Below are positions 3,516 through 20,239 of a stretch of 24,222 nucleotides of DNA, piece by piece. A model generated the notes under the pieces. The model made no database searches. It was not told the origin of the DNA and saw only the letters and a list, made by a program, of their open reading frames with translations. How positions within the stretch are numbered: the stretch's first letter is position 1; each line of letters begins with the position of its first letter. The DNA comes from a virus. A program made the translations under genes and the position numbers. The stretch spans positions 1-24,222 of IMG/VR virus record IMGVR_UViG_3300044990_001069, one strand, 5' to 3'.

Positions 3516-3698
3516 TTTTTTTGTGTCCGGGTTTCCCCTCGCTCCGCCATCAAGCGGAGAGCGAGGGGGAATAATACTTTAGGTTATTCCCCCCTCTTCC
3601 TTTAGGGAGAGGGGCGCGCGCGCGTAGGACTGTCCTAAGGACTAGTCCTAAGGACTTTTCGTTTTTGGAATGTCCTACGCGCGCGCACGCGTAGGACA
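3514..3698. repeat. Multi-hairpin repeat element, copy 1
   Basis: On the plus strand the order is as follows. A T8 tract comes first. Stem-loop 1: arms 3535-3547 and 3554-3568, loop CATCAA, a 2-base AG bulge. Stem-loop 2: arms 3565-3574 (GGGGGAATAA) and 3584-3593, loop TACTTTAGG. Stem-loop 3: arms 3591-3600 and 3605-3614, loop TTTA. Next is GCGCGCGCGTAGGAC, then two direct copies of the palindrome GTCCTAAGGAC (3632-3642, 3645-3655). Finally a 28-base palindrome at 3671-3698 has 11-bp arms TGTCCTACGCG. A homologous element lies at 17388-17604 in the same orientation. Copy 1 lies in a transcribed region: it contains the 3' end of the Lar-like gene and forms the leader of the nuclease gene. Confidence 0.9.
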
Positions 3699-9490: not shown

Positions 9491-9916
9491 TCAACGCATG
9501 ACACCGACCGCCAGCTTCAGGCGCATGGCGTTCAAGGCTACGATGCTGCTCATCGTCTTGCTTTCGGCGTCCGTCAGCCGGGCCGCGTCTGTCATGCTGG
9601 CCACGGCGATGGCACGGCCGATGCACCGGCGGCCGGAATTCACGCGCGATGCCGCCCAGTTGATGCGCTCCCGGGGATCTGCGACCCGGATTCCGCCTTC
9701 GCCGTTGCCGATGGTCAGGAGGTTGTGCTGGCGGAACAACTGCTTGCGCCAGGCGCCCATGATGGTGCGGAAGCGGTTGCTTTTCGGGTCCATGTCGATG
9801 GCTTTGGCCACGTCTTCGAGGACGATGGTTGTTCCCTCCTTTGGCACGCCGCAGAACTCTGCGATGCGGTCAACGTCGATCTTGGTGGGGATTCCCCCGA
9901 GTGATACGATGCTCAT
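9491..9916 (-). CDS. Hypothetical phage protein, 141 residues
   Basis: I do not recognise this protein. The N-terminal half (KIDVDRIAEFCGVPKEGTTIVLEDVAKAIDMDPKSNRFRTIMGAWRKQLFRQHN) reads as an alpha-helical DNA-binding-like domain. A short beta stretch follows (LLTIGNGEGGIRVADP), then a long Ala/Arg-rich helical tail (NWAASRVNSGRRCIGRAIAVASMTDAARL). ATG 9916 has GGAG six bases upstream. The gene is the first one after the pentamer array at 9952-10302, so that array would be its 5' leader if the operon is transcribed through. A regulatory role is possible but not shown. It stands 49 bases ahead of the tiny membrane-protein gene. Confidence 0.7.
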   Translation of the reverse strand: MSIVSLGGIPTKIDVDRIAEFCGVPKEGTTIVLEDVAKAIDMDPKSNRFRTIMGAWRKQLFRQHNLLTIGNGEGGIRVADPRERINWAASRVNSGRRCIGRAIAVASMTDAARLTDAESKTMSSIVALNAMRLKLAVGVMR

Positions 9917-9951: not shown

Positions 9952-10302
9952 ACGCCGCGCCCCGTTCCTTGTTCCTCGCCTAGCCCCGCCGGGCCCTGCC
10001 ACGCCTCGCCCGGCCACGCCGCGCCCAGCCTTGCCCCGCCATGTTCCTTGCCGCGCCCGGCCGAGCCGCGCCCTGCCGCGCCGTGCCTGTCCCAGCCGAA
10101 CCTTGTTCCTCGCCTAGCCGTGCCTGGCCATGCCCTGCCGAGCCGAGCCGCACCGCACCTTGTTCCCTGCCCTGCCGAGCCTTGCCATGCCAAGCCTGAC
10201 CCCGTCCCTCGCCTAGCCTAGCCAAGCCGAGCCCCGCCGTGCCCCACCTTGACCCACGCCGTGCCGAGCCGAGCCCAGCCCAGCCGTGCCACGTCCCTAG
10301 CC
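9952..10302. repeat. Block-structured pentamer array, (NNGCC)n with NNG(T/A)(T/C)CC separators
   Basis: The main part (9976-10290) is six uninterrupted blocks of 13, 11, 10, 7, 8 and 7 pentamers. All 56 end in CC and 50 read NNGCC. Blocks are separated by heptamers that look like the pentamer with two extra bases, at 9969, 10041, 10103, 10160, 10202, 10249 and 10291 (TTGTTCC, ATGTTCC, CCGTCCC, TTGACCC, ACGTCCC). A further heptamer (9962) and two pentamers (9952-9961) extend it on the left. In four of the six blocks the last unit is NNACC. The minus-strand transcript would read (GGCNN)n. It fills the 380-base gap between the 223- and 141-residue genes, and its last unit supplies the TAG stop of the former. 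Two frames are open by chance. Confidence 0.95.
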
Positions 10303-10968
10303 CTTAACCTGCTCAACCTCAACGTCGAACCGCCCGAACTGCCCCGGCGCCGTCGGCGAACCAGGCCGCCAATCGCAAAGCCCGCAGTAGAAACCCGCGT
10401 GCTTCAAGATCGTCGTGAGCATCTCCGTCGTGATCTGCTCGTCCAGAACCGTCAGCGTCCCACCGCATGCCCAGGTGTCGAACCGCGGACGCACGCGGAC
10501 ATTCTTCGACGTACCGATACGCGCCCGCTTGCAGAACAGCGTGAAGCCCATCCCGGCCGCCGCCGCCTCGTGCTGCCCGAAGTCTTCCACCTCCCGCAGC
10601 GCCTCGATGTCCTTCCACAGAACGGCCGCGCCGTTGGCCAGCAGCGGCCAGCCGATCTCGTTGACGATGATCCCCGCCTGCGTCTGCCGCTGCATCGAAC
10701 CCTTGCCCGTCGGCGCCGGACACTTCTTCCCGCCGTCGCGCAGCATGGTCATGAGGTTGTCGGCGTCGATGACCAACTGCTTCCCGTCGTGGTAGCAGTA
10801 GCCAATCCACGTCCACGCTGGCGAACGGTCGTCGCCAGGCACGCTGAACTTCTTGTTCATCGGGTCTTTCTGCCACTTCCGGACTTCTCCAGAAGCCGTG
10901 ATGTTGTCACGGTGCATCAGCAGCGGACTCGTTCCCGTCAGTGTCACTTTGTACGTTCTTGCCTTCAT
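10297..10968 (-). CDS. Conserved-looking phage protein of unknown function, 223 residues
   Basis: The protein starts MKARTYKVTLTGTSPLLMHRDN, a beta strand followed by a T-G-x-x-P-L-L-M-H turn. That turn reminds me of RAMP/Cas7-fold proteins, but similarity at this level is only a hint. The middle contains PTGKGSMQRQTQAGI and RDGGKKCPAP. The end is GQFGRFDVEVEQV, a glycine loop plus strand. It lies between the array and the SMC/Rad50-like ATPase within the ERF recombination cluster, so a single-strand nucleic-acid or recombination-accessory role is plausible. ATG 10968 has GGAG five bases upstream. The stop TAG at 10299-10297 is formed by the last unit of the pentamer array. I assign no function. 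Confidence 0.78.
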   Translation of the reverse strand: MKARTYKVTLTGTSPLLMHRDNITASGEVRKWQKDPMNKKFSVPGDDRSPAWTWIGYCYHDGKQLVIDADNLMTMLRDGGKKCPAPTGKGSMQRQTQAGIIVNEIGWPLLANGAAVLWKDIEALREVEDFGQHEAAAAGMGFTLFCKRARIGTSKNVRVRPRFDTWACGGTLTVLDEQITTEMLTTILKHAGFYCGLCDWRPGSPTAPGQFGRFDVEVEQVKG

Positions 10969-17398: not shown

Positions 17399-17604
17399 GC
17401 CGGCCCCCCTCCGCCATGCATCAAGCAGATGGCGAGAGGGGGGAAGAATACTTTAGGTTCTTCCCCCTCTCTCCCTTTAGGGGAGAGGGGTGCGCGCGCG
17501 TAGGACATGTCCTTAGGACTTTTCAAAAACCAGTTGTCCTACGCGTGCGCGCGCGTAGGACTTTGCGTTTTTGGAGTGTCCTACGCGTGCGCGCGCGTAG
17601 GACA
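17388..17604. repeat. Multi-hairpin repeat element, copy 2
   Basis: The order is the same as at 3514-3698. T tract 17391-17398. Stem-loop 1: arms 17404-17417 and 17429-17443, same ATCAA in the loop. Stem-loop 2: arms 17439-17448 (GGGGGAAGAA) and 17458-17467, loop TACTTTAGG identical to copy 1. Stem-loop 3: arms 17464-17475 and 17480-17490, loop TTTA. Then GCGCGCGTAGGAC and GTCCTTAGGAC. Here the terminal palindrome (arms GTCCTACGCG / CGCGTAGGAC) is present twice, at 17536-17561 and 17577-17604, separated by TTTGCGTTTTTGGAG. It lies between two convergent gene ends (17237 and 17631). Confidence 0.9.
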
Positions 17605-18893: not shown

Positions 18894-19640
18894 TCAACCT
18901 CCAAACAGCCGGGCCCACCAGGAGCGCCGGATTTCCGGCGGTAACGCCGCCACGTCGATCATGTGGCGCCCCACCAGGAACGCCGCTTCGCCCATCTCCC
19001 GGCGAAGCTGGTTGTAATCCTTGAACGTCAGCTTGGCTTCGCCGTGGTTGCCCCAGGTGTCGTCCCATGCCATCCGGACGACGACGTATTCCTGCTCGAG
19101 GCAGATTTGGGGCAGCAGCATGCCGTGCCCGCCTAAATACTTCCCGGTCGGATGTAGAAAGCCCTTGGCGTCTGGGCACATCATTCCATGGTAACAGTTC
19201 GTGCCGATCAGACACGGGCCGTTGTACCCGATGCCGCGGTAAGTGTCCTTTTCCTTGAAGCTGTGCTGGTAGGAGTCGCAGGCGCCGATCGCCACAAGGC
19301 GCTTGAGAATGGCAATCATGCTGGTGCCCTGCATGCGACGGCTGGCGCCTGGATATTCGCCGCCGCGGAACTCGTCGGCGCGCTGGGCCGGCCAGTAGAG
19401 TTGCTTCGTGGCGAACTCGTCGGTGATCCCTGGTACGGCGACGGGGCCGCAGGCCAGCTCCCCGGCCGCGGCGAAGGCCATGCACCCGCCGGACTTCCGC
19501 TGGTTCAACACCGGTCCCCGGGGCCAGCTCATGGAGCGAAGCGGCAAATTTTCCTGCACGCTCAGCGTGATCGGATAGTTGCGGCTCCGCTCGTCGAAGC
19601 TGGCTACTCGGTCAAAAACGCGATTCAGTTGCTGCTCCAT
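18894..19640 (-). CDS. Papain-like (C1-type) cysteine peptidase
   Basis: This is a 248-residue probable cysteine peptidase. PVLNQRKSGGCMAFAAAG (about residues 43-60) matches the papain V-x-N-Q-x-x-x-G-x-C-x-A-F: Gln47 for the oxyanion hole, Cys53 as nucleophile. YLGGHGMLLPQI (168-179) supplies His172, and AWDDTWGNHGEAKL (191-204) corresponds to the N-S-W-G motif, with Asp-Thr in place of Asn-Ser. There is no signal peptide or propeptide, so it should act in the cytoplasm or as a virion protein. Likely uses are processing of structural proteins or host attack. The start is ATG 19640 or 19667; I prefer 19640 because the extra nine residues look unlike the fold. It overlaps the upstream gene's end by 16 bases. 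Confidence 0.78.
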   Translation of the reverse strand: MEQQLNRVFDRVASFDERSRNYPITLSVQENLPLRSMSWPRGPVLNQRKSGGCMAFAAAGELACGPVAVPGITDEFATKQLYWPAQRADEFRGGEYPGASRRMQGTSMIAILKRLVAIGACDSYQHSFKEKDTYRGIGYNGPCLIGTNCYHGMMCPDAKGFLHPTGKYLGGHGMLLPQICLEQEYVVVRMAWDDTWGNHGEAKLTFKDYNQLRREMGEAAFLVGRHMIDVAALPPEIRRSWWARLFGG

Positions 19641-20239
19641 CGCGTACCCCCGTTCGGGACCGTCCATGCCCGCGTGCCGCCACCGGACAGCGTGGCTATC
19701 ACCTGCACGTTCGCCCCGTAATCCGCGCCCTTCTTCCTGAACCGGAAGTGTTGCCGGTTTCCGTTCCCTCGCCCGGTGTACGCCGCCGGGCCTTCGCCGT
19801 TAACGGTGCAAGTTGTGGCGTTGATGTTGGCCGGCAGAAGGATAACCAGCTTGCCGCCGTTGTCGGCTACCGGCTTCCAGAGAAAGGTATTCGACGCGGG
19901 AACGTCGGGCGTCGGCGTAGGGCTCGGCGTAGGGGTCGGAGTCGGCACTGGCACAGGCGCCGGGGCAGGATCTTCCTTGCCCTGGATCTTCGCCCATATC
20001 TCTTTCCACCACTTTTGAAGCTTCGATTGCCAGTTTACTTTCAACGGCACCGCGAATGGGTCCGGCTCTCCCGGCACGGCCCACGCGCGCGGCAGGTCGG
20101 CAACAACGCCATGCTCCGGACCCTCGGCAAGCTCGGCGGTGTCGCCAGCCTGCGTGTCCGGTGCCGGGTATTCCGGTTGCGAGCATCCCGCCAAAGCAAT
20201 CATTCCAAGTGCGATGATTACGCGTGTCAGTGTCTTCAT
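19625..20239 (-). CDS. Lipoprotein with Pro/Thr-rich linker
   Basis: This is a 204-residue protein. MKTLTRVIIALGMIALAGCS is a textbook lipoprotein signal (lipobox L-A-G-C, Cys19). The mature protein begins with a disordered acidic stretch and a small helical segment with WKEIWAKIQGK. A Pro/Thr linker (PVPVPTPTPTPSPTPTPDVP) leads to a C-terminal beta-rich domain (FLWKPVADNGGKLVILLPANINATTCTVNG, then FRFRKKGADYGANVQVIATLSGGGTRAW). This is the shape of a surface-exposed, outer-membrane-anchored binding domain. A family name is not recognised. ATG 20239 overlaps the upstream stop (ATGA), with AAGGAA upstream. A membrane-anchored protein in a phage late operon is unusual; it may alter the host surface. 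Confidence 0.78.
   Translation of the reverse strand: MKTLTRVIIALGMIALAGCSQPEYPAPDTQAGDTAELAEGPEHGVVADLPRAWAVPGEPDPFAVPLKVNWQSKLQKWWKEIWAKIQGKEDPAPAPVPVPTPTPTPSPTPTPDVPASNTFLWKPVADNGGKLVILLPANINATTCTVNGEGPAAYTGRGNGNRQHFRFRKKGADYGANVQVIATLSGGGTRAWTVPNGGTRWSSN

Follow-up and report, generated by a model that had tools for sequence, protein, structure and literature searches.

Analysis of the window, i.e. the whole stretch of 24,222 nucleotides of viral DNA in IMG/VR record IMGVR_UViG_3300044990_001069, revealed a dense array of pentamers between two genes. The array starts at the stop codon of a gene for a 223-aa protein (10297-10968) and stops just short of a gene for a 141-aa protein (9491-9916), and all recognised genes around it lie on the minus strand. 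It lies in a replication and recombination module, which also encodes a ParB-like protein, Erf, phrog_2698 and an SMC-like ATPase, together with a helicase and a primase and, further on, a serine recombinase; the phage is probably temperate. Promoter and terminator scans of the locus returned hits at chance level only. Elsewhere in the window, a phage-encoded peptidase (phrog_16701, E 4e-37) is found at 18894-19667 on the minus strand, and a 26-base palindrome, GTCCTACGCGNGCGCNCGCGTAGGAC, occurs in three mismatch-free copies (3672-3697, 17536-17561 and 17578-17603) where none is expected. With partial copies in their vicinity they form two clusters, in which the spacers are short and T-rich, and the palindrome is possibly a regulatory or transposition-related hairpin. 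The features of the array locus are listed here, with names that anticipate the assignment made below:

10297..10968, minus strand: vipr, predicted RAMP-fold guide-RNA binding protein, 223 aa, phrog_4652, directly upstream of the array (PHROG, profile, model)
9952..10302, minus strand: predicted VIPR guide-RNA (vrRNA) array, sense 5′-3′ from 10302 to 9952 (parse and a grammar common to 71 of 78 vipr loci)
10256..10290, minus strand: block 1 in sense order, 7 units, flanked by GGGACGT (10291-10297) and GGGTCAA (10249-10255) (parse)
10209..10248, minus strand: block 2, 8 units, followed by GGGACGG (10202-10208) (parse)
10167..10201, minus strand: block 3, 7 units, followed by GGAACAA (10160-10166) (parse)
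10110..10159, minus strand: block 4, 10 units, the last GGCGA, followed by GGAACAA (10103-10109) (parse)
10048..10102, minus strand: block 5, 11 units, the last GGCAA, followed by GGAACAT (10041-10047) (parse)
9976..10040, minus strand: block 6, the final one, 13 units, the last GGCGA, followed by GGAACAA GGAACGG (9962-9975) (parse)
9491..9916, minus strand: vap1-like accessory gene, 141 aa, winged-helix model, directly downstream of the array (profile, AlphaFold and Foldseek)

Direct parsing of 9952-10302 reproduced the block structure that a preliminary description had read from the letters alone. On the plus strand, 56 pentamers fall into blocks of 13, 11, 10, 7, 8 and 7 units; 50 of them have the form NNGCC, four blocks close with NNACC, and every unit (56 pentamers, or 59 in the tally of NN positions) ends in CC. 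As had been described, the first two positions are free, with 15 of the 16 possible dinucleotides in use, and the last three are fixed. Only heptamers separate the blocks (plus strand: CCGTTCC-TTGTTCC / ATGTTCC / TTGTTCC / TTGTTCC / CCGTCCC / TTGACCC / ACGTCCC). The sequence NNGCCNNGCCNNGCC is present in 39 copies in the window against 1.6 expected, and 37 of these lie inside the array. The period and the fixed triplet are real, but the NNGCC strand is the antisense one: the sense unit is GGC-NN, and on the minus strand the array reads as (GGCNN)n blocks with separators of the GGAACNN type. Five-base steps from GGY to GGY on this sense strand number 49, against 4.0 ± 1.9 (maximum 11) in 2000 dinucleotide shuffles of the array stretch. 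The earlier claim of two levels of order, as opposed to drift of a simple repeat, is borne out.

The array is not an assembly artefact, a possibility raised at the outset, since an identical copy occurs on a second IMG/VR contig (22,731 bases), within 14,375 identical bases, and since the grammar recurs elsewhere. The expectation that other phages would share it was confirmed by a pattern search, in which six units plus a GTTCC separator matched in 36 viral-contig stretches, many of them with several arrays.

The preliminary description knew of no element with such a grammar. GGY/NN guide RNAs were, however, published in a 2026 preprint as the vrRNAs of VIPR, a system composed of a phage-encoded RAMP protein, Vipr, and vrRNAs of alternating GGY and variable NN (PMC13142463). 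In the VIPR systems studied there, the RNA is expressed and bound by Vipr, DNA is read through the NNs with one base skipped per repeat, and transcription is repressed, silencing genes of competing phages (PMC13142463). The window shows the corresponding arrangement: GGY/NN units are repeated in tandem in the intergenic stretch next to vipr, on the strand of that gene.

The 223-aa product matches phrog_4652 in PHROG with E 3.7e-22. A profile built without SUSP1, a phage studied in the VIPR preprint (PMC13142463), recovers the SUSP1 vipr at E 1.8e-30; the SUSP1 phrog_4652 gene (E 2e-98) is located at 28474-29061, and we equate it with the preprint's vipr on account of its position and of the GGYNN runs on its flanks. 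The window protein is a distant relative of those in the Ounavirinae relatives of SUSP1 (about 25% identity). Its AlphaFold model (pLDDT 89.6, pTM 0.85) had its best Foldseek matches in Cas7 (type VII) and Csm3 (type III-A) of CRISPR complexes, with a best E of 1.9e-5. It matched 28 PDB chains at E <= 1e-3, and among the matches listed all are class 1 CRISPR RAMP subunits; among viral models it matched a 'Cas system-associated RAMP superfamily protein' (E 6e-8). A G-rich C-terminal segment, DWRPxSP..G.FGRF, is conserved in Vipr. As modelled, the protein has the features of a RAMP-fold Vipr, namely an RRM core and a glycine-rich loop. For the adjoining 141-aa protein, the profile of its family, again built without SUSP1, finds the gene directly downstream of SUSP1 vipr (ALH47068.1, E 2.5e-9), which we take by its position to be vap1. 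Its AlphaFold model (pLDDT 90.5) gave weak Foldseek matches, mostly to winged-helix DNA-binding proteins, in line with the accessory protein of VIPR type II, given as 'predicted DNA binding' (PMC13142463). Rfam, NCBIfam and PADLOC have no model covering the array, Vipr or Vap.

Vipr relatives were present in 123 of 50,697 annotated phage records. In bacterial genomes, the single Vipr sequence of the window gave no match, whereas the Vipr alignment did find matches. The isolate Geothrix campi SG10 encodes a Vipr that is 56% identical; an array with GGAAC separators lies upstream of its gene, and the vap-like gene lies downstream. In mycobacterium and Gordonia phages, arrays of GGY-NN beside a phrog_4652 gene overlap genes annotated as 'hypothetical proteins', namely Donkeykong gp48 (L062 4912-5298), Pipp gp43 (L063 4960-5229) and Trine gp40 (L066 3304-4107); these ORFs are probably, at least in part, guide-RNA array and not coding.

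The association of array and Vipr was examined from both sides. Starting from the arrays, phrog_4652 is encoded in 36 of 41 records versus none of 14 control genomes (E<=0.01). The 41 comprise the record of the window, 35 from IMG/VR that matched the pattern and five from phages, retrieved by their similarity to the array; of the five that lack phrog_4652, three are short contigs (4.4-7.7 kb). In the pattern-first loci, all arrays (48/48) are co-oriented with vipr, at a median distance of 79 bases. Starting from Vipr, 78 viral loci were newly fetched with the Vipr alignment; in 71 of them the sense strand of vipr bears GGY-NN arrays, and in none does the antisense strand. The two tests are not wholly independent, because the 78 loci include some of the pattern-first contigs.

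Comparison of related loci showed how such arrays change. L123 and L126, whose vipr DNA is 94.6% identical, have none of 14 guides in common, and L130 and L132, with 92.7% identical vipr DNA, have none of two; where vipr is 100% identical between records, all guides are in common. Wholesale replacement of the NNs is what exchangeable guides would show; a structural repeat or a coding region would not behave in this way. The separators, by contrast with the random ones that would have counted against the grammar, are conserved in relatives: 143 in-phase heptamer separators from 34 loci give the consensus GGC-(A/G)A-GGAAC-(A/G)N-GGC, with GGAAC in 99 of them. The unit before the separator is GGYGA or GGYAA in 96 of the 143, versus a background of about 16% in arrays generally, and the heptamers of the preliminary description, although present, are therefore more aptly taken as belonging to a boundary element of 10 bases, GGCRAGGAAC. 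Several arrays bear this element at both outer ends, which gives n+1 elements for n guides. Variants occur: the L101 separator has GGTTC in place of GGAAC, and cluster F mycobacteriophages have a separator of another kind, in which four bases are added (array-forward strand: NNGC-CTGCC). In relatives with spaced guides (L129, L133, L137, L138 and L142) a guide ends in GGCRA-GG or a close form and is followed by a hairpin, and so does L180, with GGCAT; these hairpin tails have 4-5 base pairs. The compact form thus seems to have retained the start of the tail and lost the hairpin.

Three other explanations of the array were weighed against a guide-RNA function. The preliminary description had dismissed protein coding on the ground that a five-base period cannot keep a reading frame. 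This is wrong, since a five-base unit yields a 15-base, five-codon repeat in every frame, and the period alone therefore does not exclude a repetitive peptide. ORFs of 91 and 130 aa indeed traverse the array, and annotators have placed genes over the arrays of cluster F mycobacteriophages (e.g. Donkeykong gp48). The non-coding nature of the array was nevertheless upheld on other grounds: between near-identical phages the NN bases are replaced completely while GGY and separators stay, the 7-base separators shift the frame, and the arrays recur beside one gene family in one orientation only. We consider a peptide very improbable.

The five-base triplet spacing would also suit a site for a ring-forming, TRAP-type RNA-binding regulator that attenuates the downstream gene. 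TRAP sites consist of (G/U)AG triplets with 2-3 base spacers, a comparable spacing, and the array is located just upstream of a same-strand gene. The partner gene, however, is a RAMP and not TRAP, relatives hold several arrays per locus, some of them upstream of vipr, and the turnover of the NNs is guide-like, which leaves such a regulator with hardly any credence. A DNA-level element, either replication or partition iterons or protein sites corrected for helical phase, has the attraction that nine pentamers and one heptamer make 52 bp, about five helical turns, that a period of five with a 2-base insert per 7-13 units fits about 10.3-10.5 bp per turn, and that a ParB-like gene and Erf are nearby. 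Strict co-orientation of the arrays with vipr and the turnover of guides speak against it, and in relatives tails of 20-40 bases or 4-base separators break any helical phase; its probability is accordingly minimal in our estimation. We conclude, with a probability of about 0.92, that these repeats are the guide-RNA array of a VIPR system carried by the phage and work in the manner outlined below.

The proposed mechanism starts from the array and its strand, its link with vipr and vap, the RAMP fold, the guide turnover in relatives and the conserved separators, and extends to the window, by analogy with its relatives, the transcription, Vipr binding, 1-nt skip and repression of VIPR. The array would be transcribed on the minus strand, with vipr (10297-10968) and vap (9491-9916) probably transcribed along with it, and the RNA would be a chain of guides in which each block, as a run of GGC-NN units, would be one guide. 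The Cas7-like RAMP protein Vipr would coat each guide, gripping its GGC triplets and leaving its NN dinucleotides exposed, which would jointly specify a DNA target with one base skipped after each pair, and the bound complex would repress a gene of a competing phage or prophage. GGCRA-GGAAC-R, which sits where relatives have the hairpin tail, would mark the guide boundary, and GGCRAGGAAC is a probable boundary or processing site, at which the transcript may be cut or successive complexes may meet.

Searches for targets gave a single lead. The exact 9-NN patterns of window blocks 5 and 6 had no match in the viral collection, and those of blocks 2 and 4 had one and three, about the number expected by chance. 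One Geothrix guide gave only chance-level matches in 77 genomes of the Geothrix family. Across 1.4 Mb of fetched DNA the mean best match was 0.771 with a 1-nt skip versus 0.761-0.763 with other skips, a slight excess. When 325 guides were compared at the peptide level with every long ORF of the loci fetched, the excess was again slight, with a mean of 21.7 versus 21.4 for shuffled guides. Guides of two related phages (L100 at 6675 and L106 at 1555) have a 7-NN core in common, and this guide family matches the GLYKTPLGS motif of a primase-like protein in three related phages, with the skips on third codon positions. There are four hits in all (L195, L196, L197 and L198). The longest version of the guide is matched in frame at 21 of 22 bases in L196; since the chance of such a match among four hits is about 0.02, we count it as a lead only. 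These matches to a conserved primase-like motif are at most suggestive of natural targets.

Compared with SUSP1 and type II VIPR, the window system has a Vipr of the same PHROG family, a homologous gene adjoining in the vap position and intergenic GGY/NN guide tracts on the vipr strand, and it is likewise encoded by a phage. Type II vrRNA units, those of the SUSP1 clade, are about 100 nt long and end in an invariable structured 3′ tail with a pseudoknot (PMC13142463). The window guides, in contrast, stand head to tail with only GGCRAGGAAC between them. A structured 3′ tail of the SUSP1 kind is absent between the window blocks, where only GGCRA-GGAAC-NN is found, and we therefore file the system as VIPR but not as type II. 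Its blocks have 13, 11, 10, 8, 7 and 7 units, three of the six falling under the 9-16 repeats per guide, a range given for other clades (PMC13142463). Class 1 CRISPR systems (Cas7/Csm3 and crRNA arrays) share with it the RAMP fold and short conserved elements flanking variable guides; the window array differs in lacking CRISPR repeats and in guide bases interrupted by GGC every five bases. An identity as CRISPR-Cas was considered and rejected, as the array contains no direct repeats with unique uninterrupted spacers and Pfam and PHROGs gave no Cas match among the ten nearby genes scanned; PADLOC gave no match for vipr or vap.

The kind of system is already known, and its tight packing here seems to represent a variant that is poorly documented. 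In the preprint, 'staggered arrays with overlapping vrRNAs' are mentioned with fig. S18 (PMC13142463); this may be the compact layout described here, with several guides that lack separate tails. When the compact form is mapped onto a tree of 86 Viprs, compact arrays are clustered (9 changes versus 20.4 with shuffled labels, 0/500), mostly within a 30-row clade (95/85) that includes the window, and also in the distant pair L150/L151. It is conceivable, and we put this forward tentatively, that the compact array is a distinct VIPR format in which n+1 copies of one shared 10-base element (GGCRAGGAAC) bound n guides and in which the transcript is cut like CRISPR precursors but without a structured tail, a format that would have arisen or spread at least twice on the Vipr tree.

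The assignment ties phrog_4652, so far of 'unknown function', to a programmable RNA-guided system, and it does the same for hitherto unexplained GC-rich arrays between the genes of many phages, well-studied mycobacteriophages among them. That system, VIPR, is a presumed relative of the ancestor of CRISPR. The head-to-tail form without tails poses the question of how several guides get cut from one transcript, for which Geothrix campi SG10 provides an isolate with the same kind of array. In the phage itself, the system probably serves to shut down rival phages.
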